Shown: positions 14 through 14,614 of the stretch, one piece after another
How positions within the stretch are numbered: position 1 is the first letter of the stretch
How the letters are laid out: each line of letters opens with the position of its first letter
From: Microvirga terrae
Lineage (GTDB): Bacteria; Pseudomonadota; Alphaproteobacteria; Rhizobiales; Beijerinckiaceae
Length of the DNA stretch: 64,000 nucleotides
Assembly (NCBI RefSeq): GCF_013307435.2
Contig: NZ_CP102846.1
Span: 310,001 to 374,000 of the forward strand
Direction: 5' to 3'
The notes under the pieces: model-generated
What the model saw: the letters and a program-made list of their open reading frames with translations, nothing else
The model's database searches: none
What the model was told of the DNA's origin: nothing
Position numbers and translations under genes: made by a program

Positions 14-646
14 TCAAGGGTGGCCAATGGTCTCTGCCGAGGTGCGGGACTCCATCGCGAACGCCTGGGCTTCAATCTCAACAAAGAGCGAGCCAACCTT
101 GGCAACGGCTCGGTAAAAGCGTGCAGATTTCGCGCTTTCCAGATCCGAGAAGAACTGCGGTGCCCAAGAAAACAAATGGCGTTCGAAGAAAGACCTTTGA
201 GTGAGGAGCATCGAGGAAAATTGGCGCGAAGCGAGACCTGCCATTATCTCACAAAGAACCGCAATATGATCCTCAGGCTCGCGTAGCCATTCAGCTGAAG
301 TCAGCCCAAGAATTGCCAAGTCGCCGCGCAGTTTTACTAGCGGGCGCTCGAGCAGAAAACCCGTCATGTAGTAAGATGCATATGGGACGATTTCACCACG
401 GCCTACGCCCACAAACAGTTCGGTGAACTCACGATTCAGCGAGTTAGGATTTGTTCTTCGGGCCGCGGACGCAAGGTCCGCATAGGCTCGACCCAACGGA
501 CTCTCATCTCCTGCCAGGCGGCCGATCCTCGAAACGAGATCACGACTTGGAGTTCGCCTCAGAAGGCCCGCGAGAAAACTGTACTGGTGCGCGCGGGCAA
601 GGTCCACATCGTCGGGGGTCGAGGCGATCGCTCTATCACCACGCAT
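14..646 (-). CDS. TorD/DmsD-family molecular chaperone
   Basis: Probable cytoplasmic chaperone that protects a molybdo/tungsto-enzyme apoprotein (most likely the formate dehydrogenase alpha subunit) until cofactor is inserted and Tat export is allowed. The protein is about 210 residues, the usual TorD size, all-helical in character, with the family-like stretch NREFTELFVGVGRGEIVPYA near residue 70 and an EPEDHIAVL motif near residue 120, matching the conserved E-P-x-D-H of TorD proteins. I chose the ATG at 646 because a GGAG lies upstream; a TTG at 676 would add ten residues. It is the last gene seen of the leftward operon and reads toward the window edge, where the enzyme genes are expected (inference). 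Confidence 0.85.
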   Translation of the reverse strand: MRGDRAIASTPDDVDLARAHQYSFLAGLLRRTPSRDLVSRIGRLAGDESPLGRAYADLASAARRTNPNSLNREFTELFVGVGRGEIVPYASYYMTGFLLERPLVKLRGDLAILGLTSAEWLREPEDHIAVLCEIMAGLASRQFSSMLLTQRSFFERHLFSWAPQFFSDLESAKSARFYRAVAKVGSLFVEIEAQAFAMESRTSAETIGHP

Positions 647-904
647 CGCCGGTACTCCGGCTCCCGAGCCAGGCAAACGCCTTAGAAGCTCTCGGGGCTA
701 AACCTCGTATGCACGAGGATCGGTCGATCCAAAAGTCGAGCGATTCAAAACCTAGCGCAAGAACGGCTTCCATAGCAGTCTCATCCGTGCGAGCAATGTA
801 AGATCGTTAGAATAGGTGTTTGGGGAGCAAGACGAGCTAACCCAGACGCAATCATTGGCGGATAACCTTAAGTCGCGGCTACAACTGGTGAATAGGTAAG
901 GCCC

Positions 905-1633
905 TCACATCGGGGTTGCGCCGCCGTGTCGTCGCTGAGCTCGCACGGATCCATCATGCCAACCACAGGCGAAGGGAGACAGATGGCTGACGTGGGAGAC
1001 CGATCTGGCGTCCGGCCCGGGCATAGCCGTCTTATCATGCGGGTGCGAGGAACCATACGGAAGGTGCATAGGCTCCGCCCCTTCCCTAGGGTCTCCTTCC
1101 TCGTTGTGCGCAGCAGCGTCAATTTGTGGGCCTGCAGCTGGGTCGCTGAAAATAGTCCTCGCCGTTCCTTCGTGGAACCGAGCTGGCCGGGGCGGTGGAG
1201 CGGTAACGCGCTGCACCAAAGTAACGGCATCAGGGCCGTGCATCGGGCCACTTCCGGGTACGTCCCCGCCGGAGTTCCAATCATAGGCATACTCCCGCGC
1301 TTCACTCACGTAGTCTCGGATGCTTGGGTCAAGGGTCCACATGCGCCTCAGGGCAGCGTTCCGCAGTGCCGTCGGAACACCAGGCTGCATGAACAGAGAC
1401 AGATCCGTATCTGCCCGCAGTTCGTCAATATCGGGTAGATAGGCAGACTCTCCTGCGGAGTGCGCGGCAGCGGCCTGGTCAACTGTGTTTGCTTGAGATA
1501 CAAGATGAGGCGTTCGAGATGAGATACAGTCGCTCTCAGAAATGGGGAGTGATGCAGGAGTCGCCGTCTCCGGCCGGGATGTTTCTCGCTTACGCCGTGA
1601 CCACCGCAGAAAAAAACTCTCATTATGATCCAT
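905..1633 (-). CDS. DUF3306 domain-containing protein
   Basis: Protein of unknown biochemical role that recurs in alphaproteobacterial formate dehydrogenase clusters (family knowledge). The N-terminus has the typical FFLRWSRRKRE start, the middle holds the conserved segment with AALRRMWTLDP and RDYVSEAREYAYDWN (residues about 95-125), and the C-terminus ends in the family-like RRHGGATP. The last 100 residues are rich in Pro, His and Asp and look disordered. The ATG overlaps the 3' end of the DUF3305 gene by 11 bases, so the two are translationally coupled. A gap of 258 bases separates it from the TorD gene, in which I see no further gene. Confidence 0.8.
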   Translation of the reverse strand: MDHNESFFLRWSRRKRETSRPETATPASLPISESDCISSRTPHLVSQANTVDQAAAAHSAGESAYLPDIDELRADTDLSLFMQPGVPTALRNAALRRMWTLDPSIRDYVSEAREYAYDWNSGGDVPGSGPMHGPDAVTLVQRVTAPPPRPARFHEGTARTIFSDPAAGPQIDAAAHNEEGDPREGAEPMHLPYGSSHPHDKTAMPGPDARSVSHVSHLSPFACGWHDGSVRAQRRHGGATPM

Positions 1634-2138
1634 GTTTTGCGTCCCGTTTCGGGTTGCCAGCTTCGACCTTCAGCGATGGGGGCAGGCCAGAGTTATCCCG
1701 CCTACGCTTTATGAAGGATCGTTCCTGGTGAAAGCGACCAACAAAACGTGCAACTCTACGCCGAATCTCTGGATGCATCGGCACGGCCTCGACGATGATG
1801 CTCGTCCAATCCGTCAGTGCCTCTCCCTCGTAGGGGTCGACCGTTACAGCCAAGATCCGGCAGTCATCGTACTTCGTGCACTGCATCCCAATCCAGAGCG
1901 AAGGCCTTCCTGATGTAAGGTTGTCGCGGTAGTATGCAGTGGCACCTGAATGCAGAGAGACTTCGAAGCTACCCGCGTAGATCAACTCTTTGCGTTGATT
2001 GCAAACGAGCCTAGTCCACGGTGGAGTGGACGGGACAGCCGGAAGTGCCGTCTCAGGACGCCACGCATTCTCAACCCAACGAGCATCCAAGTGGTACTTT
2101 GCGACAATCACTCCGACCTGAAAATGCTCATCAGCCAT
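1623..2138 (-). CDS. DUF3305 domain-containing protein
   Basis: Small protein of unknown function that pairs with DUF3306 in formate dehydrogenase loci. The sequence opens with FQVGVIVAKYHLDARWVENAW, the usual family start (V-x-x-E-R-x-x-x-x-x-x-x-W pattern), and has a central GRPSLWIGM and a C-terminal charged RRRVARFVGRFHQER helix. The ATG at 2138 overlaps the upstream DUF6352 stop codon in an ATGGCTGA arrangement, which supports this start over a TTG six bases earlier. About 171 residues; no signal peptide or membrane segment, so cytoplasmic. Confidence 0.8.
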   Translation of the reverse strand: MADEHFQVGVIVAKYHLDARWVENAWRPETALPAVPSTPPWTRLVCNQRKELIYAGSFEVSLHSGATAYYRDNLTSGRPSLWIGMQCTKYDDCRILAVTVDPYEGEALTDWTSIIVEAVPMHPEIRRRVARFVGRFHQERSFIKRRRDNSGLPPSLKVEAGNPKRDAKHGS

Positions 2139-3162
2139 GCTCAAACTCCTGCTCGATGCTGTTCAAGCGGGATATTGCGGAAAGCTCGAGGATCAGGTTA
2201 TGGGGGCTCACATGCACTATGTCATCTGGAGTTGCGGCAAGCAGAACGTAAATTGGATGAGGGACGCCCTTCCATACCCTCTCATGGCCATCGACAAACG
2301 TGAGGCGAAAGAGCGCTAAGATCCGAGTGATCTCTCCGCTTGTAAGCGTCTCTCCATTCCAGAGAGCGTGTCCAATTCGCGTCGCCTCCGCGTCGAGACC
2401 CAGGACGTTTCGACATGCCCCATCCTCAATCGCGTCAATGGGGAGCACGTCTAAATCGACGTGAAGAAGGTGCTCGATCCAGGTTGATACTACCTGGGCA
2501 AGACCTTGCCTCGCCCTTGGGTCAGACCCGATATTAAGCACCATCGTGAAGGCATCAGAGCGGCTCCAATAGCTCCATGCATTTGTGTCGCTAAGAATGT
2601 CAAGATTAACGATTGCGTCACGGCCCAAGATCGCGTCGAGCGGAGAGCAAATCGCAGCTTCTTTGAGGACATCGATGGTCTCAGCATCCGCGAGGAGTGG
2701 TGTGCCGGTACCATAGGACACACACTGTTTCCTAAACAGTAGTTCGCCGGCGCGAAGCACGTGTGGATCATCGCAGCCATCGAGCGCGTTGCGCAGAATG
2801 AGATGCACGAGGTGATTGATGAGAAGGGGCGGCGTGCCTGCAGGCCCGCAGCGTATTAGATTGAGATAAGCACCCTCAATAGTCTTCGCTTCGAGAAGCC
2901 GGTCGCGGAAAGCCACCATAATCGCCCAATTGACTCGAGCGTCGGAGTCTTCAAGTTTCGCAATCTCATCGTTTGACACCGGCCGACGTGGAGAGTTGAG
3001 TAATGCAGCGCGAAGTTCACTTTCCGCGCTACACGCGTCAGCCGGTGCATTAAGCTCCGGGCGAGCAAGAAATGCTAGGAGCAACTCATCCGTTACTTCA
3101 AGCTCGCCGTTTCCTGCGCGGCGGGTGAGATGATGGCCGCTAGACACCCAAAACTCCCTCAC
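2131..3162 (-). CDS. DUF6352 family protein
   Basis: Member of a family of unknown function found in formate dehydrogenase accessory operons. The N-terminal REFWVSSGHHL and the ELLLAFLARPEL and FRDRLLEAKTIEGAYL segments are the recognisable conserved blocks. It is 343 residues, largely helical, with no export signal. It starts at GTG 3162, preceded by GGAGG at good spacing, and this GTG overlaps the stop of the DUF6505 gene by four bases (GTGA). Tight coupling on both sides says it is made together with its neighbours. The role is not known; a scaffold or maturation factor for the enzyme is only inference. Confidence 0.8.
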   Translation of the reverse strand: MREFWVSSGHHLTRRAGNGELEVTDELLLAFLARPELNAPADACSAESELRAALLNSPRRPVSNDEIAKLEDSDARVNWAIMVAFRDRLLEAKTIEGAYLNLIRCGPAGTPPLLINHLVHLILRNALDGCDDPHVLRAGELLFRKQCVSYGTGTPLLADAETIDVLKEAAICSPLDAILGRDAIVNLDILSDTNAWSYWSRSDAFTMVLNIGSDPRARQGLAQVVSTWIEHLLHVDLDVLPIDAIEDGACRNVLGLDAEATRIGHALWNGETLTSGEITRILALFRLTFVDGHERVWKGVPHPIYVLLAATPDDIVHVSPHNLILELSAISRLNSIEQEFEHG

Positions 3163-3749
3163 AGCCGCCTCCCCACTGGCGACCCGCCGAGATCGACGAA
3201 ATCGGGGGATTCGTCGATCTCGACCGCCTCAAACGCGCGGGTCATCGCGTGCATACGATCGGCCCCAGGCACGCCGCATGTTGTCTTGCGTGGAGCGCGG
3301 AACTCTTCTTTGAGTTGATCGTTCGTCAGGCTTCGATGCATGGTTATGATCGTGCCTGTCTCGAAGCGGCAAAGAGAAGAGGCGTAGGAGGTCTCTGCCG
3401 TCGCTACGGCGAATGCCACATGCAAGTCAGGAGCGTTGAGCGTTTCGTGAAGGTATCTTGCTAAAGCCTCGATGGTTCCGTTGTACTCCTCTTGGGTCGC
3501 ATCTGCGATCGCGACGAGGGTCGAGAATCCGAAGGAAGGCACGCCCAGAAAGCCATTTCGAAATGCCGCCCGTTGTTTTGCTGCGAGGTTCGCGATATCG
3601 ACGTCCCAGAACATAAAGGATCCTGTCACAGCCCATTCGCCGGGCTCCGACGCGCGCTCAAAGAGCTTTGTGTCGGACGCGTCGAGCCGGATCGTGCGTG
3701 GAAGCTTCAGAGTCACGGTCTTTCCGCTCTCGATATCGGCCGAAGCCAT
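3159..3749 (-). CDS. DUF6505 family protein
   Basis: Protein of unknown function from the same formate-dehydrogenase accessory operon type. From the ATG at 3749 it reads MASADIESGKTVTLKLPRTI, and LKLPRTIRLDASDTKLFERA followed by EPGEWAV is the conserved family opening. A central RAAFRNGFLGVPSFGFSTLV block follows. The tail after about residue 150 (DADRMHAM, EIDESPDFVDLGG) is acidic. An upstream in-frame extension exists, but it overlaps the ligase-like gene and is very Arg-rich, so I exclude it. It overlaps the upstream gene by 37 bases. Confidence 0.75.
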   Translation of the reverse strand: MASADIESGKTVTLKLPRTIRLDASDTKLFERASEPGEWAVTGSFMFWDVDIANLAAKQRAAFRNGFLGVPSFGFSTLVAIADATQEEYNGTIEALARYLHETLNAPDLHVAFAVATAETSYASSLCRFETGTIITMHRSLTNDQLKEEFRAPRKTTCGVPGADRMHAMTRAFEAVEIDESPDFVDLGGSPVGRRL

Positions 3750-4474
3750 TTGAGGCTGTGAAGGGCGGGCGCGATGTCGCACCGCTCGATGATACCGCTC
3801 GCGGCGTATTCGACCACCAGGTCGCCGCTCTCCGTGAGCGTGAGGCCAGTGCTTGACTTGAAGGGCCTGAGCCGGGCGGTGTAACATTCTGCAATAGATT
3901 TGGAGCCCTGATCCTCCCAAAGGTTGAGCCCGCGGAGAAAGTTCCGCGCGAAGGTCTCCACGAGCCTTGCATGGTGGTCCACCCGATCAGTATCCTCTTC
4001 ACCCAATTGTGGGTCCTCCGCACGATCAGGATCGATCGCCCAGCGCCTCGGTTCCTCTAGCCGCGCTGAGAAGACCAACCATGGCGGCACGTCTTCGTCG
4101 CAGCAGTCCGCGGGGCGACCCAGACGTCCACTCCCAATTCGGCTGTGGTCAAGCCAAAGGGTATCGGGCCAGCCGAAATAGATCTCCATCCCAGGGGAGC
4201 AATTCGATGCGACCGTACCGGCCAGTGCAGTCATTCCAACAAAGAACGTCCATCGTGACGACATCAAGGGCATATTGGGCTCGAGCACGACAGACAACTC
4301 AATACGGTCCGGTCGATTTACCCATACTAACGTACCCGCCCCTAGTTCCGACGCTCGCTCGCAGATTTCGTCGAATCCATCGTCCGGCCTGTTCAGCACC
4401 ATCAATTCGTAAACCGGCGGAAGATTGATCTCTATCATCGGGCGACAGCTCGACAGAGTATTCGTTGCGTTCAC
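3713..4474 (-). CDS. biotin/lipoate protein ligase-like protein (probably catalytically altered)
   Basis: First gene of the leftward accessory operon. It shows the fold signature of the biotin/lipoate ligase-like family that sits in these loci: INLPPVYELMVLNRPDDGF, GAGTLVWVNRPDRIELSVVL and IYFGWPDTLWLDHSRIGSGR. In true biotin ligases the last block reads K-W-P-N-D...K-x-x-G; here the first lysine is glycine and the catalytic lysine position holds a non-lysine residue, and no GRGRxG nucleotide loop is visible. A non-catalytic role in enzyme maturation is therefore plausible (inference). The GTG at 4474 has an AGGA upstream; the ATG at 4438 gives the start closest to homologues and is an equally good choice. 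Confidence 0.7.
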   Translation of the reverse strand: MNATNTLSSCRPMIEINLPPVYELMVLNRPDDGFDEICERASELGAGTLVWVNRPDRIELSVVLEPNMPLMSSRWTFFVGMTALAGTVASNCSPGMEIYFGWPDTLWLDHSRIGSGRLGRPADCCDEDVPPWLVFSARLEEPRRWAIDPDRAEDPQLGEEDTDRVDHHARLVETFARNFLRGLNLWEDQGSKSIAECYTARLRPFKSSTGLTLTESGDLVVEYAASGIIERCDIAPALHSLKWLRPISRAERP

Positions 4475-4610
4475 TCCCGTCCTATCCGGGATGTCTCAGC
4501 AGTACTACGTTGGGTGAGGTCCTGCCATTATATTCATGTATAGTGTTGAGTGGGGCGAAGTCTGATAGATTGCCAGTCATTTCCAGCAACTTCAGCGCAG
4601 GATGTTTGGC
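4475..4610. promoter_or_regulatory. divergent promoter region of the two formate dehydrogenase accessory operons
   Basis: The only space between the leftward operon and the rightward 4Fe-4S/moeA set. It contains an AT-rich imperfect palindrome, TATATTCATGTATA near 4530-4545, against a GC-richer background. An oxyanion- or formate-responsive regulator binding here would control both operons, but no site can be assigned by eye. Confidence 0.35.
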
Positions 4611-6629
4611 ATGGGGTCCGCTGATAAAAGTGTGATTGCTTGCTCCTGTGAAGGAACGATGCCCCTTGACAAGGCCGCGCTGGAGCGTGGATGTGGCGGC
4701 AAGCTTGAGTTCGCCAATCAGCTCTGTCGGAAGGAGCTCGATCGCTTCAGAGCGGTTGTGTCATCCAGTGAACAAACGGTCGTGGGTTGCGCGCAGGAAG
4801 CTCCCTTGTTTGCGCAAACGGCGGCGGTGAGTGGCTCGCAGAGCAAGGTGGTCTGTGCTAACGTCCGTGAGACGGCCGGTTGGTCGGAGGATGCCGCTTC
4901 GGCTGGGCCAAAAATGGCGGCAATTCTTGCGTCCGCTGCCGAGGAACTGCCTCCGATTCCGCTCGTGACGCTGACCAGCAGCGGTGTTGCGCTTGTCTAT
5001 GGGAATGGCGAGCTGGCGATTTCGATCGCAACCAGGATTTCGGAGCAGCTCGATGTAACGGTCCTGCTATCTGATGGTAGTGATACTGTTCCTGCGCGCG
5101 TCAACGAGTTTCCAATACTGAGCGGTACTATCACGTCGGCGAAAGGACATCTCGGAGCATTCCATCTTTGTGTTGACGACTGTGCAGTTGCACTGCCGTC
5201 GTCGCGTAGTAAGCTTATGTTTGGTCCAGCGCGATCAGGGGTCATCTCGAAATGTGACATCATCATTGATGTGTCGGGTGGTCCCCCGCTCTTCTCGGCA
5301 CATGAGCTAAGACTCGGTTATTTGCGTGCCGAGCCGCTCGATCAAGTGGCGGTTGAACGTGCGCTTTTCGAGGCTGTCCAGCTCGTGGGCGACTTTGATA
5401 AACCCCAGTTCGTAGATTTTCGTGCTGAGCTATGTGCTCACTCACGTTCTCACATTACCGGATGTACTCGCTGTCTCGATATATGCCCAACGGGCGCGAT
5501 TTCTCCTGCCGGGGATCATATCGAGATAAATCACAATATTTGCGCTGGTTGCGGCAACTGCGCGTCGGTTTGCCCGACCGGTGCTGCTGCTTACACACTT
5601 CCGCCATCTGATGCATTGATTCAGAAGCTTCGCAGGCTTGTGCTCGCCTTCCACGCAGCAGGCGGACGCGACGCAGTGATTCTTTTCCATGACAGCGGTC
5701 ACGGCGAGCCTCTGATTGATGCACTCGCTCGATTTAGAGAAGGACTTCCGGCAAACGTGCTTCCCGTAAAAGTGCATGAAGTGGGCCAGGTCGGGCTCGA
5801 AGTAATTGCTGCCCTTTTTGCATACGGCGTATGTGCAGTGCGATTCTTAGTTCATGCAAGACCGAGGTACGGCATTGAGGCGCTCCGGCAGACAATCTCC
5901 ACCGCCGATGCCCTGCTCCGGTCGCTTGGTTACGGAGCGAGGGACGGTTCTCCGGTAGTAGGCGTCGTTGAGACCGATGACCCGGACGAATTGTCGTCTC
6001 AGCTTGTCAATGGTCCACTTGGTACACCTCCGCCAGTACCTGCCACCTTCCTTCCAAGCGGGCGCAAGCGTCATGTCCTGGAGTTCAGTCTACAGGAGTT
6101 GCGCCGGTTCGCGCCACGTCCCATTGAACAGGTTCCGCTCGAGCCCGGCGCGTCGTTCGGTGGCATAGACGTCGACGGTGGCCGATGTACGCTATGTCTA
6201 TCGTGTGTCACAGCTTGTCCCACGCATGCGCTCTCCGACAATTCTGAGCGGCCAATGCTGCGCTTCACGGAAGCACTGTGTGTGCAATGCGGCTTGTGCG
6301 CCGCGACTTGTCCTGAGGATGCGATTGAGCTAGTGCCGCGGATCGACTTTGCCGCATGGGGCGCCCCAGCGCGTATCATGAAGCAGGAGGAGCCATTTTG
6401 CTGTGTGAAATGCGGCAATGCATTCGGAACGCGGTCATCGATTGAGAGGGTCATCACCAGGCTACAGGCGGGTCATTGGATGTTCTCTGGCATCGAAGGT
6501 GAGGGCCGGCTTAACATGCTCAGGATGTGTGATCACTGCCGAGCCGAGGATATAGCCAACTCCGGCTTCGATGCGCATAAGGTGGAGAGTGATATGCACA
6601 GGCCCAACGGAGACAAGATCGGTAACTGA
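4611..6629 (+). CDS. 4Fe-4S protein of formate dehydrogenase clusters
   Basis: Large soluble iron-sulfur protein (about 672 residues) of a family encoded beside formate dehydrogenase accessory genes; probably an electron-transfer or maturation partner. Four ferredoxin-type motifs are visible: CTRCLDICP (near residue 288), CAGCGNCASVCP (314), CTLCLSCVTACP (529) and CVQCGLCAATCP (561). Near the C-terminus, CCVKCG and CDHC pairs (about 600 and 644) resemble a zinc or extra metal site. The N-terminal third has scattered cysteines (GCAQE, VVCANV) and a nucleotide-binding-like LVYGNGELAISIA stretch. I prefer the ATG at 4611, preceded by AGGA at 7 bases, over the ATG at 4602. It is divergent from the DUF operon. 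No Tat or Sec signal is seen. Confidence 0.85.
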   Translation: MGSADKSVIACSCEGTMPLDKAALERGCGGKLEFANQLCRKELDRFRAVVSSSEQTVVGCAQEAPLFAQTAAVSGSQSKVVCANVRETAGWSEDAASAGPKMAAILASAAEELPPIPLVTLTSSGVALVYGNGELAISIATRISEQLDVTVLLSDGSDTVPARVNEFPILSGTITSAKGHLGAFHLCVDDCAVALPSSRSKLMFGPARSGVISKCDIIIDVSGGPPLFSAHELRLGYLRAEPLDQVAVERALFEAVQLVGDFDKPQFVDFRAELCAHSRSHITGCTRCLDICPTGAISPAGDHIEINHNICAGCGNCASVCPTGAAAYTLPPSDALIQKLRRLVLAFHAAGGRDAVILFHDSGHGEPLIDALARFREGLPANVLPVKVHEVGQVGLEVIAALFAYGVCAVRFLVHARPRYGIEALRQTISTADALLRSLGYGARDGSPVVGVVETDDPDELSSQLVNGPLGTPPPVPATFLPSGRKRHVLEFSLQELRRFAPRPIEQVPLEPGASFGGIDVDGGRCTLCLSCVTACPTHALSDNSERPMLRFTEALCVQCGLCAATCPEDAIELVPRIDFAAWGAPARIMKQEEPFCCVKCGNAFGTRSSIERVITRLQAGHWMFSGIEGEGRLNMLRMCDHCRAEDIANSGFDAHKVESDMHRPNGDKIGN

Positions 6630-6788
6630 TCAGGCTCTGGTGAGTTGCCCGAATCCTCTCGGTGAGGGTCAATCCGGGTAGGGGTTCTCAGATGCCATTG
6701 AAGTGGTGCTTCAGAGTGATTGAGGACCTCGGGTTGACGTATACCGCGGGCGCAATTCCGTTCGTCTCGCAGTTGTTGGGGCCGGTGG

Positions 6789-8027
6789 ATGTCACAGCAT
6801 CGAGACAGTTTCTCACGACTTCGTGGGCGGCTGTTCTCGACCGTGAAAGGGGAAATAGATTTGCGGTTTGATGTAGGTGAACCGGGCCGCTCTGCGTTAC
6901 CCAGCGGAACTCTAGTCACAGAGCGGCGTGAGGCTCAGAAGTTGCTTTCACTCGCGGGTGCAGTTGACGCTTTGATGAGAGTCATCAGGCCGGTTCCCAG
7001 CTGTGAGGTGAATCTTCGTGACGCGGAAGGGTTTGTTCTTGCAGAGCCCGTCATCGCAGCGACAGATGTTCCACGGGCCCGGACGGCGCTCCGCGACGGC
7101 TACGCCGTTCGCGCTTGCGATACTGTTGGAGCCTCGTCATTCAATCCTGTCTATCTAAACAAACCGCCGGTCATGGTTGCCGCGGGAGACACATTGCCTG
7201 TGGGGTGTAATGCTGTTCTGCCTGTCGATGCGCTTTCGCTTGAGAACGGCGTCGTAGAAATTTGCCAATGCATTGCTCCGAGCGAGAGTACCCGTTTGCC
7301 AGGAGGAGACGCGGCACAGGCGGCAGTTCTACGTAATGGAGGTGAACGGGTTCGGTCAATCGACATCGCCTGCGGGTTAGCTGCTGGAGTAGAGACCTGC
7401 GCGGTTCGCCAGCTTAGGACTCGCCTTCTGGTTGCGCCGGAATCGAACGAAACCCTATGTACGTTGGTGGCAACGCTCCTGAGGCGAGCCGGATCTCTCG
7501 TGTCAGCGCCCTCCGGCTTTGGCGGTCGAGCGGATCTTGCGGCTGCACTCGGAGAGCCAGGGGCCGATTTGATTGTCGTTATTGGCGGATCCGGCTTCTG
7601 GCGATCTGATGTCAGGTCCAGTTCGGTGGCTGGAGTGGGGGCTCTTATTGCGTACGGACTGGCTGTGCGACCAGGCGAGGCTGGCGGCTGCGGCATTGTC
7701 AACGAGATCCCCGTACTGTTGATTCCGTCTCAAATGGAGGCTGCCCTCGCGCTGATGCTCACAGTTGCCCAGCCTTGCCTCAGCATGTATCTCGCGGCAG
7801 CGGCGGAGCGCCCATTACATCGCGGCAGAGTAACCCGCAAGATTGTATCAGCCGTCGGGATGAGCGATGTTGCATTGTTGCGCAACGTGAATGGTGAGCT
7901 TGAACCTCTCGCGGTTGCAGATCTTAGTCTGTCCGCAATAGCGGCGGCCGATGCTTGGATTATGATTCCGCCTAGCAGCGAGGGTATCGCTGTTGGCACA
8001 GTCGTTGAAGCACAAGCGCTCTGGTGA
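6789..8027 (+). CDS. degenerate MoeA-like molybdopterin-binding protein
   Basis: MoeA paralogue that has lost the signature residues of the metal-insertion enzyme. The layout is that of MoeA (412 residues), but the N-terminal PPFDNSAxDGYAV is replaced by VPRARTALRDGYAV, the STGNE loop by APESNE, the SGGVSxGxxD loop by IGGSGFWRSD, and GLPGNP by LIPSQME. It probably cannot catalyse the normal MoeA step but may still bind pterin or a partner (inference). The first 45 residues before LLSLAGAVDAL are longer than in MoeA, so a later non-ATG start is possible. It is separated by only 6 bases from the following moeA-PBP gene. Confidence 0.75.
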   Translation: MSQHRDSFSRLRGRLFSTVKGEIDLRFDVGEPGRSALPSGTLVTERREAQKLLSLAGAVDALMRVIRPVPSCEVNLRDAEGFVLAEPVIAATDVPRARTALRDGYAVRACDTVGASSFNPVYLNKPPVMVAAGDTLPVGCNAVLPVDALSLENGVVEICQCIAPSESTRLPGGDAAQAAVLRNGGERVRSIDIACGLAAGVETCAVRQLRTRLLVAPESNETLCTLVATLLRRAGSLVSAPSGFGGRADLAAALGEPGADLIVVIGGSGFWRSDVRSSSVAGVGALIAYGLAVRPGEAGGCGIVNEIPVLLIPSQMEAALALMLTVAQPCLSMYLAAAAERPLHRGRVTRKIVSAVGMSDVALLRNVNGELEPLAVADLSLSAIAAADAWIMIPPSSEGIAVGTVVEAQALW

Positions 8028-8033
8028 TCTGTC

Positions 8034-10004
8034 ATGATTGAACAGCGGGATGATGTCGTCACCAGTACGGCTCTACAGCAGCAACAATTCTTAACCGTCT
8101 TGTCGCGTGACGAAGCAGTGATGAGGTTTGAGGCTGCACTAGCCCCTACGCCTCTTGGTCGGGAAGAGGTCAATCTTTCGGATGCACTTGGGCGAGTGCT
8201 AGATGATGAGATTATAGCATCGATGGATGTGCCGCCATTCGATCGTTCTCTCGTCGACGGATTTGCAGTTCAAGCTGCAGATCTCGTGGAGGCTTCTATT
8301 AGCTCGCCTGCAAACTTGCAGCTGAACCAAGAGATCATCTCCGCTGGGACGACTCCGACAATTGCTGTCTCTCTTGGTACTGCGACTGCAATAGCAACGG
8401 GAGGACCTATTCCGAGAGGTGCGGACGCCGTGGTGATGATAGAGCACACGGAAGCATCGACGCTGACGCCCAACGCGGAAATTGTGGTGCAGCGTCCAGT
8501 CAGCCCAGGCCAAAATATCGGGTTTGCCGGTTCTGACATTGTTCGTGGCGAGACAGTGCTAAGACGGGGCGCAGTCATTGGATCGCGTGAGATCTCCATG
8601 TTAGCGGCGTGTGGAGTCGATAAAGTTCCTGTAATCCGACGACCGCGCGTTGGTGTGATCGCGACGGGCAATGAACTTGTGGCCCAAGGCATGCCGCTCA
8701 GGACGGGTACGATTTACGACTCCAATAATCCCATGATCTGTGCGGCGGTGTCCGAGAGTGGCGGAATACCGGCCAATTATGGCATAGTATGCGATGACGA
8801 AGCGGCTTTACGTGGAACAATCATGCACTCATTGGCTGAGTGTGATATGGTCATCCTTTCTGGAGGGACGTCGAAAGGGGCTGGCGATTTAACCTATAAA
8901 CTCCTTGCCGATCTCGGTCCTCCAGGAATTATCGTGCATGGTGTGGCTGTGAAGCCAGGCAAGCCGCTATGCCTCGCGGTCTGCGACCGCAAGCCGGTCA
9001 TTGTTTTGCCAGGCTTTCCGACCTCGGCGATGTTCACCTTCTTTGATGTTGTAGCGCCATTAATCAGCCGCCTGGCGGGTTTGCCAGAGCGTCGTCGTGC
9101 ACACATCTCTGCAAACGTGCCGGTTCATGTGCCATCGGAGCTCGGGCGGACAGAGTACGTTATGGTGTCTCTTGTTGAGCGTGAGAACGGCGTTGTTGCC
9201 TACCCGCTGGATAAGGGATCCGGTTCAGTTTCCACATTTGCCCAATCCGACGGGTTTCTCTGTGTCGACGCCCTTGCGGATGCAGTGCCTGCCGGTACAA
9301 GCGCCGACGTGGTTCTTCTTTCCAGCCGCTCGCGCATTCCAGACCTCGTAATCACTGGGAGTCACTGCTTAGGGCTTGATATGGTTGTCAACCATCTTAC
9401 TTCTTCAGGGCACATCGTCCGCCTCATAGCTGTCGGAAGCCTTGGCGGGCTCGCGGCTGCACGACGAGGCGAATGCGATGTGGCTCCGATCCATCTGATG
9501 GACCCGACCACCGGCCTCTACAATTGCAGCTATGTTTCCCCTGGTCTTGAGCTGATTAAGGGATGGACGCGCATGCAAGGCCTAATATTCCGGAAAGGAG
9601 ATGTCCGCTTTGATGGAGCAGGTCCGGAGATGGCGTTGGCGACAGCGCTCTCGGACCCAGACTGCCACATGGTCAACCGAAATCAGGGCTCAGGGACTCG
9701 CATATTGGTCGACAAGATGCTGAAGGGCGCGACGCCGACTGGATACTGGAAGCAGCCGCGTTCACATAATTCGGTCGCTGCAACAATTGCACATCGAAAC
9801 GCGGACTGGGGTATCGCAATAGTGCCCGTGGCTGAAGCATACGGCCTGGAGTTCATCCCAATTGCGGAAGAGCATTACGATTTCGTGTTGGTATCCGAGC
9901 GGCGCTACCACCCGGCTGTAGGGGCTTTCATTGAAGCTCTTGATAGTTCTGTAGTTCATGCTGAACTCCGCCGACTCGGCTTTCGGCGGTCTAGTGAGGT
10001 GTAG
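8034..10004 (+). CDS. MoeA domain fused to C-terminal PBP/substrate-binding domain
   Basis: Two-domain molybdopterin biosynthesis protein. Residues about 20-420 are MoeA with intact loops: PPFDRSLVDGFAV (67), ATGNEL (210), SGGTSKGAGD (275) and LPGFPTSA (324). Residues about 437-656 are a periplasmic-binding-protein-like domain of the type found in LysR/ModE-PBP proteins, with NRNQGSGTR (547) and ADWGIAIVPVAEAYGLEF. Without an export signal it must act in the cytoplasm, so the PBP domain probably senses or delivers an oxyanion or pterin. MoeA inserts Mo or W into adenylated molybdopterin. The architecture is known from archaea and some bacteria. Operon with its neighbours; the next gene follows after 4 bases. 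Confidence 0.9.
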   Translation: MIEQRDDVVTSTALQQQQFLTVLSRDEAVMRFEAALAPTPLGREEVNLSDALGRVLDDEIIASMDVPPFDRSLVDGFAVQAADLVEASISSPANLQLNQEIISAGTTPTIAVSLGTATAIATGGPIPRGADAVVMIEHTEASTLTPNAEIVVQRPVSPGQNIGFAGSDIVRGETVLRRGAVIGSREISMLAACGVDKVPVIRRPRVGVIATGNELVAQGMPLRTGTIYDSNNPMICAAVSESGGIPANYGIVCDDEAALRGTIMHSLAECDMVILSGGTSKGAGDLTYKLLADLGPPGIIVHGVAVKPGKPLCLAVCDRKPVIVLPGFPTSAMFTFFDVVAPLISRLAGLPERRRAHISANVPVHVPSELGRTEYVMVSLVERENGVVAYPLDKGSGSVSTFAQSDGFLCVDALADAVPAGTSADVVLLSSRSRIPDLVITGSHCLGLDMVVNHLTSSGHIVRLIAVGSLGGLAAARRGECDVAPIHLMDPTTGLYNCSYVSPGLELIKGWTRMQGLIFRKGDVRFDGAGPEMALATALSDPDCHMVNRNQGSGTRILVDKMLKGATPTGYWKQPRSHNSVAATIAHRNADWGIAIVPVAEAYGLEFIPIAEEHYDFVLVSERRYHPAVGAFIEALDSSVVHAELRRLGFRRSSEV

Positions 10005-10008
10005 GGGG

Positions 10009-10506
10009 ATGCGCATTATCGGACTTGCGGGGTGGAGTGGCGCAGGGAAGACAACTCTTGCCCTCAAGCTAATTCCTGAGCTCAACCGACGCGGCTTCAC
10101 TGTTTCGACTGTTAAACACGCTGACGACGCGTTTGAGGTCGACAAACCAGGTAAAGACTCTTTTGAACATCGCGCTGCTGGCGCTACTGAGGTTTTAGTA
10201 TCGTCGAGCCGACGATGGGCGTTGATGCACGAGCTCCGGGACGAAACTGAGCCTGAGTTACGAGATGTGCTGGCGCGGCTTTCGCCGGTTGATATTGTTA
10301 TTGTTGAAGGCTTCAAGCGCGATAACCATCCAAAGATCGAGGTCTATCGAGCGGGGAACCGAAAGCCATTATTGTTTACCAAACTTTCCAATGTACGTGC
10401 TGTCGCCTCAGACGTCGAGATTCCGGGAGCTGAGGTCCCAGTCCTCGCGTTAAACGATGTCACCTCGATCGCCGAACGCGTACTAGCGCTGGCTATGACG
10501 ATCTAA
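10009..10506 (+). CDS. mobB: molybdopterin-guanine dinucleotide biosynthesis protein MobB
   Basis: GTP-binding adaptor that assists MobA in forming the guanine dinucleotide form of the cofactor. A P-loop GWSGAGKTTL sits at residues 8-17, followed by TVKHADDAFEVDKPGKDSF and HRAAGA, both standard MobB blocks, and VIVEGFKRDNHPKIEVYR near residue 102. Length is 165 residues, typical of the family. The ATG at 10009 has GGGGG directly upstream and starts just 4 bases after the moeA-PBP stop; an earlier in-frame ATG at 9958 lies inside that gene. Confidence 0.93.
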   Translation: MRIIGLAGWSGAGKTTLALKLIPELNRRGFTVSTVKHADDAFEVDKPGKDSFEHRAAGATEVLVSSSRRWALMHELRDETEPELRDVLARLSPVDIVIVEGFKRDNHPKIEVYRAGNRKPLLFTKLSNVRAVASDVEIPGAEVPVLALNDVTSIAERVLALAMTI

Positions 10507-10602
10507 GAGGCGATTGCGAGTCCAAATGACTCTGTCAAGATCGCCACGCTCTTGCTGACGGAGCAACCGATGAGAGAGAATGTGCAATAGTGAGATTCAA
10601 CC

Positions 10603-11853
10603 ATGGCTCAGCTTTCGAATGACTGCTTCGTCTGCCAACAGGAGGTGATTCGACTTGTTGATGCCCTCGGTCTCATCACCGAGCGCATCAGCTCTGTCAC
10701 TGATAGTGTCATCATCCCAATTGAAGCATCTGATGGTCGGATCCTCGCTGTGGACGTCCTCGCGCCGGTTGACCTACCCCCTTTCGATAATTCGGCAGTG
10801 GATGGATATGCGGTTAGGTATGCTGACCTAAACGCCTCGGGCGAAAGCTATATGCGTATCGCTGCGCGAGTGACAGCCGGCGCTCAGCTCAATGTTGATC
10901 TGCCGCCGGGGAGCGCCGTAAGAATTTTTACTGGCGCCCCAACTCCGGCACAGTTTGATACGGTGTTTATGCAAGAAGATGCTACGGAAGACGGAGAGAA
11001 CGTTAGATTGCCTAAAGGGCTCAGATGTGGTGCCAACCGCCGTCTGGCCGGTGAAGATCTAAAGCGGGGCTCTATCGCGTTGAGAGCTGGGCGGCGATTA
11101 TCACCCTCGGACATTGCGCTGCTGGCGGCCCTCGGACGTACGACGGTAGTGGTACGACATCAGCTAAGGGTCGCGCTATTCTCGACCGGTAACGAAGTCA
11201 TTCCGCCTGGTCGGCCGCTGGAGGTGTCTAAGATCTACGACGCCAACCGGTTCATGTTGCGTGCCCTCTTAGAACGCGCCAACTGTATGGTAACAGATCT
11301 TGGGATACTTCCAGACTCAGAGGCCGCCGTTAGGAGGGCTATTGTCGCAGCAGCGGACACGCACGACCTCCTAGTCAGTTCGGGAGGCGTATCGGCAGGG
11401 GACGAGGATCATGTCAGAGCAGCGGTTGCGAGTGTAGGATCGCTCGTGTTCTGGCGAGTCAGCATTAAGCCGGGGCGTCCGGTTGCGATGGGAGTTGCAG
11501 GTGGAACGCCCTTCATCGGATTGCCCGGTAATCCGGTCGCCGTATTTGTCACGTTTGCGCTCCTAGCGCGTCCGCTCATTGCACGACTCGCGGGCGAGGA
11601 GTACCAACCGCCGTATCCGGTCACAGTGGTTTCCGGCTTCTCCTATGAAAAGAAAGCAGGCCGGAGGGAGTATGTACGCGTTCGCCTTTTTAGCCGTGAC
11701 GGCGCGGTCGAGGCACAGAAACATCCGAGCGATGGAGCCGGTGTTATCACCTCGCTCACGCAAACGGATGGCCTTCTTGAACTGCCTGAGCATGCCACAC
11801 GCATCGAGCCTGGAGACCCGGTTGGCTTCCTGTCTTATGCAGAGTTGCTATAG
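10603..11853 (+). CDS. moeA: molybdopterin molybdenumtransferase MoeA
   Basis: Canonical MoeA that hydrolyses adenylated molybdopterin and inserts the metal. All signature loops are present: [18 protein letters not shown] (residue 59), [14 protein letters not shown] (193), [16 protein letters not shown] (258) and [10 protein letters not shown] (305). Its 416 residues match the family. It is the third moeA-type gene within 5 kb and the only one with every conserved loop in standard form. A gap of 96 bases separates it from mobB, so it may have its own ribosome entry. Its last 19 bases overlap the 3' end of mobA on the other strand. Confidence 0.95.
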
Positions 11854-12497
11854 CCAGTCATGTCCACACCCCGGTTGGTAAGTCGTTCCGCCTCAACCAG
11901 GTCATCAGGTGTATTCACGTTGAAGAAGGGATCAACGGGGCAACATTGCCAATCTGCATGAGCGACGCCGTAGCGTGCGGTCCAATGGTCGATCTTGCGT
12001 ATCTTCTCGTGAGTAAGCGCGTTACGTAGATCCTCACGGAGTGTGACCGGCCAGAGGCCGTTTGCCGGGTGTGTCCGTCCGCCCGACCACGCGCAGGCGA
12101 GCGGCGTTCCACATCGGCGTCTGGCAGAGTGCAGTTGTGCGACAAAATCCCCTGGAAGAAATGGCGAGTCTGCGGCGACACTCACCACCCATTCGATACT
12201 AGGTCTGTACAGTGCAGTCCAATCCAATGCCGCTAGGATGCCGGCGAGTGGCCCCACAAAGTCGGGAATGTTATCTGGGACGACTACAAGTCCAGCAGTC
12301 ATAAAGCGGGCAGGATCACCGTTAGCGTTCAGTATCAGTTCAGCACACTGAGGCTTCAGATGCCCTATGATATGCTCGAGAAGGGTGCGATCTCGCAGCA
12401 TGCGAAGTGGCTTGTCTCCACCGCCCATGCGCCGTGACAAGCCCCCTGCCAACACAACGCCGAGAGTGAGAGGATCCTCGCTTTTGCTCATTTTCAT
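11835..12497 (-). CDS. mobA: molybdenum cofactor guanylyltransferase MobA
   Basis: Transfers GMP from GTP to Mo-molybdopterin to give MGD, the cofactor form of DMSO-reductase-family enzymes such as formate dehydrogenase. The glycine-rich nucleotide-binding loop [18 protein letters not shown] is at residues 14-31, PLAGILAAL follows, and DSPFLPGDF provides the metal-binding Asp. [14 protein letters not shown] is the conserved C-terminal block. Start ATG 12497 has GAGGG four bases upstream. It is convergent with moeA and overlaps its end by 19 bases. Confidence 0.94.
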
Positions 12498-12536: not shown

Positions 12537-13418
12537 TTAGTCGTCATGGGATTGGCTTTGGCGTCCTTTAACAGATTGTTCCTCGACGTATGCAAGGTCT
12601 TGATCATAGATAATCCGATCCTCTCCCGAGAGAACTGCGAAGCGTTTGCCGCGCGCTCGACCGATGAGTGTAAGCCCAGTCCTGCGGGCAAGCTGCACGC
12701 CCCAGGCAGTGAACCCAGAGCGGGATACTAGTATTGGAATGCCCATGCGCACTGTTTTGATCACCATCTCAGACGTTAGTCGGCCAGTCGTGTAGAAGAC
12801 TTTGTTGGCTCCACTCTCGCAGTGGCGAAACATCCAGCCGGCAACTTTGTCAACCGCGTTGTGTCGGCCAACATCTTCCATATAGACAAGTGGCTTGTCG
12901 CCGCAGGCAAGCACGCAGCCGTGTATCGCGCCGGCCTCCAAGTAGAGGGACGGTATAGTGTTAATCGCATGTGTCAGCCGGTAGAGCCACGATGTCCGAA
13001 AAGGCGCCTGCGGAAGGTTGATCGTGTCCAGAGCCTCCATCAAGTCGCCGAAAGAAGTCCCTTGAGCGCAACCGCTAGTTTGGGTTTTCTTCCTGAGCTT
13101 TTCCTCATAGTTGGTTCTTGTTTCTGTACGGACGACGACCACATCCAACTCGTCGTCATAGTCTACCCCGGTTACATGATCGTTAGGCTTGAGCATATGT
13201 TGATTGAGCAAGTACCCGACTGCAAGGTATTCAGGATAATCGTTGATCGTCATCATTGTGACGATTTCCTGACTGTTGAGATATAGTGTGAGCGCTCGCT
13301 CCACGGGAACGCTTGTCTCAATTATCTCTCCACGCTCATTTTGGCCGCTCACGCGCTCTGTGAGTCGTCGGTCGGATGGATTGGGACACACGAGGAGCTT
13401 TCGCCTATTCTCAGCCAT
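12537..13418 (-). CDS. fdhD: formate dehydrogenase accessory sulfurtransferase FdhD
   Basis: Carries sulfur to the bis-MGD cofactor of formate dehydrogenase. Conserved blocks seen: NSQEIVTMM (substrate-binding region), GCAQGTSFGDL (cysteine loop, about residue 117), GAIHGCVLA, EDVGRHNAVDKVAGW, TTGRLTSEMVIK and SRSGFTAWGVQLA. The cysteine loop has a single Cys (GCAQGT) rather than the CxxC of the E. coli enzyme, a variant I associate with rhizobial homologues. It runs upstream of and in the same direction as mobA with a 39-base gap, so the pair is likely co-transcribed. Confidence 0.94.
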   Translation of the reverse strand: MAENRRKLLVCPNPSDRRLTERVSGQNERGEIIETSVPVERALTLYLNSQEIVTMMTINDYPEYLAVGYLLNQHMLKPNDHVTGVDYDDELDVVVVRTETRTNYEEKLRKKTQTSGCAQGTSFGDLMEALDTINLPQAPFRTSWLYRLTHAINTIPSLYLEAGAIHGCVLACGDKPLVYMEDVGRHNAVDKVAGWMFRHCESGANKVFYTTGRLTSEMVIKTVRMGIPILVSRSGFTAWGVQLARRTGLTLIGRARGKRFAVLSGEDRIIYDQDLAYVEEQSVKGRQSQSHDD

Positions 13419-14105
13419 TGACTTCGTCCAATGTACTCACATGCCCGGCCAACAGACGCGTTGACAACAGGTGCTAAAGAATGAGCGGCGGCCCGGTCGC
13501 GCAAGTCCTGAGGCATTGGCCTCGAGATGCGACACCAGTGCCCGCCAAGATGGTAGCCGACAGCCAAGCCCAAGGCTGGCGGACACAAGGGTCAGTACTT
13601 TAGCTCTTGCCGCGACTCGCATCGCAGAGGCTTGATGGCATAAGATAAGTATCGACATTTGTTACTGATGCGCATCTATACATCGGTATAGAGTCTGACC
13701 AGTGAGGAGCAGGCCGTGCTACTCTTGCTACAATTCGAATTGTGAGCCCGTTGATTTGCTAGTCGATGCGTCAATATCAGGCCAGGTTTCCCTGATCGAG
13801 AATGGAAGGCTGGGATGTGATCAATACCATGGCCGGGGTGCTCCGCCTCTGGGAGTGCTTTGCGCGGCACGAGATCCATGGAGGTGTGAACCTGGGCCGC
13901 TGTTGCTGTATTGTGGAGATCCGCTTGCTTAGTACGGGCAGTTGCGCAGGTTCGCGATCCACGACGAACCAAGTACCGACAGTGCCTCGCCGTTCTACAT
14001 TCGTCTCAGCCGTTACGACTATTGGTCCTGCAAGGTGAGCGAAGCAAAGTAGCGTACCAAACCCGTCTCGTGGTATTTTGGACCTATGAAATATAGGAGG
14101 TTTCT
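13419..14105. other. 686-base intergenic region with no recognised gene
   Basis: Open frames here are short, Arg/Ser-rich and resemble no family I know. The stretch upstream of the DUF6494 gene (about 14040-14100) is AT-richer and probably holds its promoter. Confidence 0.4.
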
Positions 14106-14300
14106 ATGGATGAAGAGCACCTTAGCGTAGCGATCCGGAAATTTCTTCGGGAAGTGGGCGTGACCTCACAGCGTGAGATTGAGCGTGTCGTTCGCGATGC
14201 GACGATCGCTGGGCCAAAGCTCCGGCTTCGCATGGCTCTTACCTCTGAGGATTTGCCGGGGTGGCATCATGTTGTGGAGACAACAATCGAACTCCGTTGA
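14106..14300 (+). CDS. DUF6494 family small protein
   Basis: A 64-residue protein with a clear AGGAGG ribosome binding site six bases before the ATG. MDEEHLSVAIRKFLREVGVT, then SQREIERVVRDA, match the DUF6494 pattern, and the C-terminal half ends in a short beta-rich segment with VVETTIEL. No signal or membrane segment. Function unknown; its place between the cofactor genes and the tungstate transporter suggests a role in the same enzyme system (inference). Confidence 0.75.
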   Translation: MDEEHLSVAIRKFLREVGVTSQREIERVVRDATIAGPKLRLRMALTSEDLPGWHHVVETTIELR

Positions 14301-14614
14301 GTTCCATGCGGTTGGACACCGTAGTGAGAGGGCAGTTCCGATGTCTATCCCTTCCGCTTCGGCAGCCAGCTCGCGCATTGCACGCTACAGCAGCCTTCAG
14401 TACAATCTTCGTGGCAAACACGGGTGGCAGCCCAATCGCCTTTCTTCCTGAAACAGTATATGATCAGCCGTTGCTTCAGATGGTTGTGTGCAGAGAGGTT
14501 TGCCTCTCCCCTATCCAAGAGAGATACTGCTCGATAACCGCATCCCCAAAGTCGCCGGTCCTTAATGGCGAATGCATATACCGGAGGCAGGATCGCTCAG
14601 TAGGTACTTTCGCG
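14301..14614. other. intergenic stretch without recognised gene
   Basis: About 310 bases between the DUF6494 gene and the convergent regulator gene. Only low-quality overlapping frames are present; no clear terminator hairpin with a T-run was seen. Confidence 0.4.

Follow-up and report, generated by a model that had tools for sequence, protein, structure and literature searches.

The window analysed here is a stretch of 64,000 nucleotides (nt) of Microvirga terrae DNA, comprising bases 310001-374000 of contig C2 in a 6.13-Mb genome, and its left end carries a compact group of genes associated with a formate dehydrogenase (FDH) of the FDH3 type. Six genes on the minus strand, encoding a ligase-like protein, the DUF6505, DUF6352, DUF3305 and DUF3306 proteins and a TorD-family chaperone, face a 4Fe-4S polyferredoxin gene on the plus strand (Table 1). 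This layout had been described in an earlier reading of the letters (the original prediction), and all seven genes lie at the positions claimed and exceed their own Pfam cut-offs. The enzyme subunit genes expected to the left of position 1 were also found, fdhX-fdhA-fdhB-fdhC standing directly left of the window on the same strand as the six-gene set, so that the outcome named as refuting the original prediction did not occur. The mechanical open reading frames (ORFs) of DUF6505 (3159-3920) and the ligase-like gene (3713-4474) are overlong, and their likely starts are 3716 and 4438, because the database copies have 185 amino acids (aa; P0121, DUF6505) and 241 aa. Neighbouring genes overlap at four of the five junctions, by 4 nt (ligase/DUF6505 and DUF6505/DUF6352), 14 nt (DUF6352/DUF3305) and 11 nt (DUF3305/DUF3306), the sole junction without overlap being DUF3306/TorD with its 228-nt gap. 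In 4400-6900, 0 promoter-like sites were found against 1.0 expected. The chaperone belongs to the NarJ/TorD family (PF02613) and not to TorD sensu stricto, the trimethylamine N-oxide reductase chaperone, its score of 68.8 bits lying below the cut-off of 132 bits of the TorD equivalog NF003442.

Table 1. Genes at the left end of the window and in the adjoining enzyme operon
Feature	Position	Strand	Remarks
TorD/NarJ-family chaperone	14..676	-	220 aa, TTG start; PF02613 106.5 bits, cut-off 22.2
DUF3306 protein	905..1633	-	242 aa, predicted soluble; PF11748 66.7 bits
DUF3305 protein	1623..2144	-	173 aa; PF11749 103.1 bits
DUF6352 protein	2131..3162	-	343 aa; PF19879 162 bits
DUF6505 protein	3159..3716	-	185 aa, GTG start; PF20115 163.8 bits
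Biotin-ligase-fold pseudo-ligase	3713..4438	-	241 aa, ATG start; PF16917 117.7 bits
Polyferredoxin	4602..6629	+	675 aa, two dicluster 4Fe-4S domains; Fer4 66.3 bits, Fer4_7, Fer4_9
MoeA-like gene	6789-8027		MoeA_N and weak MoeA_C match, no MoCF_biosynth domain
MoeA-PBP fusion	8034-10004		
MobA, likely partner	11835..12497	-	synthesis of bis(molybdopterin guanine dinucleotide) (bis-MGD); PF12804 120.3 bits
FdhD-family sulfurtransferase, likely partner	12537..13418	-	PF02634 244.3 bits
FdhX	left of window	-	71 aa, start 60 nt past TorD stop; TIGR02811 37.8 bits, under cut-off 48.45
FdhA	left of window	-	980 aa; twin-arginine motif RRAFL
FdhB	left of window	-	198 aa; NCBIfam FDH3_beta NF038355 333.6 bits, cut-off 240
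FdhC	left of window	-	384 aa; formate dehydrogenase gamma (cytochrome b) TIGR01583 146.4 bits, cut-off 115.85

Judged from its sequence, the enzyme left of the window is an FDH3-type formate dehydrogenase with a twin-arginine translocation (Tat) motif and an active-site cysteine, predicted to oxidise formate; among the FDH3 alpha subunits compared, the active-site Cys and a Tat-like motif are each present in 44/44. The arrangement of the locus is conserved in relatives, which were gathered by a DUF6352 alignment scan of a one-genome-per-species collection and annotated by phmmer using the window proteins. The 80 named loci among the 258 confirmed relatives are the closest ones and thus show conservation rather than the limits of the gene set. 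Where at least 9.5 kb of downstream sequence was available, DUF3305, DUF3306, TorD, FdhA, FdhB and FdhC are encoded on the same strand in 58/58 loci and FdhX in 56 of them; the 69 loci that extend 4.5 kb or more upstream all carry the ligase-like gene and, in divergent orientation, the polyferredoxin gene, and 65 of them also DUF6505. As this order recurs across 80 loci fetched by DUF6352 alone, chance does not explain it. Possible 4-nt xTGA overlaps in these loci are commonest at DUF3305/DUF3306 (71/76 pairs), followed by ligase/DUF6505 (51/75), DUF6505/DUF6352 (48/76) and DUF6352/DUF3305 (25/78), and are missing from DUF3306/TorD (0/73). The proposed overlap at nearly every junction therefore stands for four junctions and fails at DUF3306/TorD, and the stoichiometric complex read from it is something that gene overlaps cannot show.

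The association with FDH3 extends beyond these loci to a class sample of 143 genomes from 128 genera and a phylum sample of 179 genomes (Alphaproteobacteria and Pseudomonadota, respectively, as inferred from named relatives), two draws that share genomes and are thus not independent. FDH3_beta scores above its cut-off in 22/143 class genomes. DUF3305 and DUF3306 each occur in 23/143, namely all 22 FDH3 genomes and one other (G093), and DUF6352 in 19/143, every one within the 22 (Fisher 7e-21). DUF6505 is above its cut-off in 14/143, 13 of them within the 22, while a fifteenth match (G066) falls under the cut-off. The remaining DUF6505 match, in a genome without FDH3 (G089:C3:5362-5742), has an internal TAA and looks like a relic. 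In the phylum sample, DUF3305 and FDH3_beta each mark 28/179 genomes, and these are the identical 28; DUF6352 is found in 12/179, all inside the 28. In one genome, G285 (C97), FDH3 beta and DUF3305 are each present twice. The genomic association and the distribution of these families are direct observations, and the predicted link to a Mo/W formate dehydrogenase is borne out by the adjacent enzyme genes and by near-perfect co-occurrence in both profiles.

That the genes merely travel together in an operon with no functional tie would fit the synteny of most loci, in which linkage alone could carry them. Co-occurrence nevertheless holds in eight genomes with DUF6352 far from FDH3, either unlinked at a distance of 280 kb (G019), 2.8 Mb (G157) or 180 kb (G286), or on separate contigs, with over 10 kb to the nearest contig end (G036, G077, G095, G102, G117); a DUF6352 gene on another contig but near its end (G063) was not counted as unlinked. 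Hitch-hiking is further contradicted by the identical 28/179 genomes of DUF3305 and FDH3 beta and by both genome samples for DUF3305, DUF3306 and DUF6352, which makes it a very improbable explanation. In the ORF lists around unlinked DUF6352 genes (L149, L167, L168, L172), read by eye, no recurring neighbour was seen.

According to a 2023 review on how molybdoenzymes mature (PMC10609526), the operons of periplasmic FDHs are systematically linked with fdhE. FdhE (PF04216, a search which detected the E. coli control) is encoded in 6/143 class genomes: in none of the 22 with FDH3, the window's own (G000) included, and in 6 of the 121 others, a difference that is insignificant by itself (p = 0.59). 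In all four of the six genomes where the FDH alpha gene adjacent to FdhE is readable, its active site is encoded with an in-frame TGA (RV or RI, TGA, HGPT); of the other two, G111 has a contig beginning after the alpha gene and G138 shows no alpha gene in the stretch fetched. Sinorhizobium meliloti carries fdoGHI-fdhE-selABD (PMC4053727), and DUF3305/DUF6352 are plasmid-borne in S. medicae and other Sinorhizobium (five records), although the species are not cleanly split, since one of the five records is an S. meliloti strain.

The ligase-like protein has the fold its name implies, with an hhalign probability of 99.4 percent against BirA, but the label conceals the loss of the residues for ligase chemistry. 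Biotin ligases carry the stretch GRGRxGR as adenylate loop, together with a catalytic Lys. Among 89 distinct relatives of the family (domains of at least 80 bits and more than 170 aa, some from overlapping fetches of one genome), the GRGRxGR stretch is gapped in 89/89, and the Lys of KWPND and that of GxKxxG are retained in 0/89 each; all three features are kept in the eight BirA controls, which all come from FDH3 genomes, three of them (G102, G112, G139) also carrying the ligase-like protein. The window's own copy lies outside the 89 and was read in alignment A3. No Lys column is conserved above 60 percent in the family. On these residues the protein is a pseudo-ligase, and a working lipoate, biotin or other acyl ligase with an FDH subunit as its substrate, as its fold might invite one to assume, is hardly credible given the missing loop and lysines. 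Pseudo-ligase-type PF16917 proteins, counted with a threshold of at least 110 bits set by hand, occur in 15/143 class genomes, all within the 22 with FDH3; one further protein (G063, 111.6 bits) was set aside as BirA because it keeps GRGRQGR and KWPND. The orphan structure 3BFM, titled 'biotin protein ligase-like protein of unknown function' in the PDB, belongs to the same family, as it matches an FDH3-linked pseudo-ligase (G115, L145) with 281.7 bits (E 4e-83); the structure is here placed with FDH3.

The six genes do not form one inseparable set, as had been supposed. With the polyferredoxin and FdhX, DUF3305, DUF3306 and TorD make up a core found phylum-wide, whereas pseudo-ligase, DUF6505 and DUF6352 are an add-on of patchy occurrence. 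Eight loci from other classes (L157-L163, L166), picked by FDH3/DUF3305 and independently of DUF6352, share the order DUF3305-DUF3306-polyferredoxin-TorD-FdhX-FdhA-FdhB-FdhC, with DUF3306 undetected in L166 and a 4-kb gap between TorD and FdhX in L163; two of the eight genomes (G157, G286) have DUF6352 elsewhere. Four genomes have the core with pseudo-ligase-DUF6505 and no DUF6352 beside it, three of the class (G115, G228, G240) and one of another class (G202). The add-on has been gained or lost more than once, as carriers and non-carriers interleave on an FdhA tree (44 selected sequences, FastTree, midpoint root, add-on labels by hand), and a history with a single gain was dropped for the same reason. 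In one of the loci without adjacent DUF6352 (L145, G115), an ApbC/Mrp-type Fe-S carrier gene (10777-11859, PF10609 331 bits), hinting at Fe-S delivery, directly precedes pseudo-ligase and DUF6505, and an ABC (ATP-binding cassette) transporter (13130-14604; TupB-like permease 160.8 bits, cut-off 320), with a possible link to tungstate, adjoins the same pair. The patchiness of the add-on, the ability of DUF6352 to stand at a distance as tuning modules do, and a pseudo-ligase without catalytic residues would all suit a division of labour in which the core serves maturation and pseudo-ligase, DUF6505 and DUF6352 act as a control module that senses formate, metal or oxygen, or restrains FDH3. This is unlikely, because in the 80 named loci the add-on precedes the enzyme genes, often with 4-nt overlaps, and Pfam and NCBIfam detect no DNA-binding or signalling domain in it.

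For the DUF3305/DUF3306 pair, the gene neighbourhood points to the molybdenum cofactor. FdhD and then MobA stand directly before DUF3305 in five genomes (G036, G093, G095, G117, G395), and it is chiefly for this reason that a step involving bis-MGD is proposed. The window's DUF3305 protein also weakly matches the MobA-DUF3305 model NF011058 in its DUF3305 half (48.1 bits, cut-off 820). The fusion named in that NCBIfam title was sought and rejected, only side-by-side genes being found; in G093 and G395 the two share one frame with a single TAA between them. Both DUF3305 and DUF3306 look soluble from their sequences: the best 19-residue hydropathy exceeds 1.8 in 1/80 and 0/76 proteins, respectively (matched parts only), compared with 65/65 for FdhC as a positive contrast. 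The AlphaFold2 model of DUF6352 has a predicted local distance difference test (pLDDT) score of 85.4 and a predicted template modelling score (pTM) of 0.85. For DUF6505 the pLDDT is 68.9, dropping under 50 for residues 144-185, and its four further models reach 43 to 54.5. Neither the DUF6352 nor the DUF6505 model has a significant PDB match, which is by itself no proof of new folds. When profiles of the locus proteins and of BirA were compared with one another (all but FdhA against the polyferredoxin), the probability exceeded 20 percent only for MoeA-like/MoeA-PBP, pseudo-ligase/BirA and polyferredoxin/FdhB, giving no homology among the DUF families or to FdhD, MobA or TorD; no DUF-FdhD pair was among the 25 best comparisons, all such pairs lying below 0.4 percent with an FdhD profile from 9 sequences.

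The polyferredoxin has N-terminal cysteines (C12, C14, C29, C40 and C61 in L008 numbering) that are conserved in 76 relatives. Its residues 525-651 match the formate hydrogenlyase protein HycF (NF009053, 55.9 bits, cut-off 204) and its C-terminal part matches polyferredoxin subunits of formylmethanofuran dehydrogenase, resemblances that would suit a reading in which the polyferredoxin and its partners form a cytoplasmic electron-transfer branch of the mature enzyme instead of assisting its assembly. Such a branch is quite improbable: with the Tat-like motif present in 44/44 alpha subunits, the site of mature FdhA is expected in the periplasm, apart from a polyferredoxin in the cytoplasm, and TorD, DUF3305 and DUF3306 would be left unexplained.

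Taken together, the gene set is probably a dedicated, FdhE-independent maturation set for the Tat-exported, active-site-cysteine FDH3 formate dehydrogenase, with a role in maturation as opposed to regulation or electron transfer. In the cytoplasm, TorD would hold the FdhA precursor via its Tat signal while DUF3305 and DUF3306, acting as a pair, would hand bis-MGD over from MobA and FdhD into apo-FdhA, and the polyferredoxin might supply electrons for a reductive step in metal-cofactor or Fe-S loading. The add-on, found mainly in Alphaproteobacteria, may provide subunits with no catalysis of their own, which would retain or proof-read apo-FdhA ahead of export, filling the place that FdhE has for the selenocysteine enzymes FDH-N/O. 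A broader scheme is put forward tentatively, as a possibility with somewhat less than even prospects: that there are two routes to a respiratory periplasmic FDH, one for selenocysteine FDH-N/O with FdhE, the other for cysteine FDH3 with a DUF3305/DUF3306/polyferredoxin/TorD machine, which was extended, mainly in Alphaproteobacteria, by a biotin-ligase-fold scaffold, stripped of its chemistry and holding cofactor or apo-enzyme, together with DUF6352 and DUF6505, for which no fold match was found.

Several observations weigh against the maturation hypothesis. The add-on is dispensable, DUF6352 being absent from 3/22 and DUF6505 from 9/22 FDH3 class genomes, and no add-on gene lies beside FDH in the eight other-class loci. 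The absence of FdhE from FDH3 genomes is statistically insignificant taken alone, as noted above, and Shewanella oneidensis is reported to have both systems, with fdnG/fdnH/fdhE and a separate SO4503-SO4509 group (PMC2535785). In the SO2426 mutant of this species under chromate, SO4504, SO4505, SO4506 and SO4509 fall, and since the same is true of fdnG, fdnH and fdhE, this co-expression cannot separate the two systems (PMC2535785). G093 carries FdhD-MobA-DUF3305-DUF3306-polyferredoxin (L142 9686-14062) with no FDH3 beta above the cut-off genome-wide, and its core may serve another client enzyme or be a remnant. An intact MobA-DUF3305 fusion is found in 0/385 genomes, the putative electron-donor role of the polyferredoxin is read only from its domains, and a literature search turned up no experimental work on what these genes do.

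Further molybdenum-related genes lie rightward of the polyferredoxin, in the order degenerate MoeA-like gene, MoeA-PBP fusion, MobB, MoeA, MobA and FdhD-family gene, the FdhD-family protein scoring under the NCBIfam FdhD cut-offs. Three MoeA-family genes thus fall inside 5.1 kb (6789-11853). Matches to the MoeA-like gene and the MoeA-PBP fusion, possibly a metal-selective (Mo/W) pair, occur in 36/80 and 34/80 loci and often adjoin the polyferredoxin gene. In locus L001, a LysR-type regulator ORF (10134-11357, family assigned by reading) has its N-terminal region as two tandem copies.

The findings suggest a second, little-known way of building periplasmic formate-oxidising enzymes, in which a widespread FDH type dispenses with FdhE in the 22 sampled FDH3 class genomes and has another gene set instead. 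Four DUF families and the orphan structure 3BFM can thereby be tested directly on a single enzyme of a tractable methylotroph, and for formate biotechnology a transfer of FDH3 to new hosts would probably have to include the core genes besides fdhABC. As predicted, no biochemical role for DUF3305, DUF3306, DUF6352 or DUF6505 was found in print within the literature searched, which covered few subscription papers: nothing for DUF6352 and DUF6505, and only Bay et al. 2015 for DUF3305/DUF3306, a further DUF3306 hit (PMC7160927) being a paper on aquaporin 4; the available parts of PMC12445348 and PMC10682008 contain nothing on these genes. The core cannot be called undescribed, as the original prediction had it, since Bay et al. 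2015 (PMC4464133) had already placed DUF3305 and DUF3306, together with a NarJ-family chaperone, upstream of fdhGHI, and the FdhX family has an NCBIfam model. As far as the searches reach, what is new is the correspondence between DUF3305 and FDH3 on the scale of the phylum, the lack of FdhE in the sampled FDH3 class genomes, the pseudo-ligase verdict with its context for 3BFM, and DUF6352 and DUF6505 as FDH3-linked families. Published expression data touch on the core: in a Vibrio cholerae table, the changes of VC1511-VC1518 (cytochrome b, Fe-S subunit, a marked pseudogene, a hypothetical protein, chaperone, Fe-S protein and two hypothetical proteins) all have the same direction (PMC5816637), and gene order suggests that the hypothetical proteins in such co-expressed groups are DUF3306/DUF3305.

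Among known systems, the operons of Bay et al. 2015 (PMC4464133) are alike in DUF3305, DUF3306, a NarJ-family chaperone, a Tat-target protein, a Fer4 protein and fdhGHI, with a 60 percent association given for dmsD-annotated fdh operons. They differ in that DUF3305/3306 are termed putative membrane proteins there, whereas hydropathy indicates soluble proteins here; in that TorDfdh species are described with fdhD/fdhE in trans, unlike the 22 FDH3 genomes; and in that a literature search found no DUF6352 or DUF6505 in the accessible parts of the paper. FDH3 of Methylorubrum extorquens (fdh3DABC), which FdhB resembles through its FDH3_beta match, is termed periplasmic, and the DABC genes are named with no genes before them in the portions of the source covered (PMC12180729). 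FdnGHI/FdoGHI of Escherichia coli, with FdhD and FdhE, is likewise a three-subunit FDH that is exported by Tat and served by its own cytoplasmic assembly factors (PMC10609526). The window genome shares with that system an FdhD-family protein, and departs from it in the absence of FdhE (22/22), the presence of a NarJ-family chaperone, an active-site Cys instead of TGA, and five (core) to eight (core and add-on) further genes. FdsC is a cofactor-binding chaperone, and the job proposed here for DUF3305/DUF3306, the hand-over of bis-MGD to an FDH, would resemble that of FdsC and FdhD.

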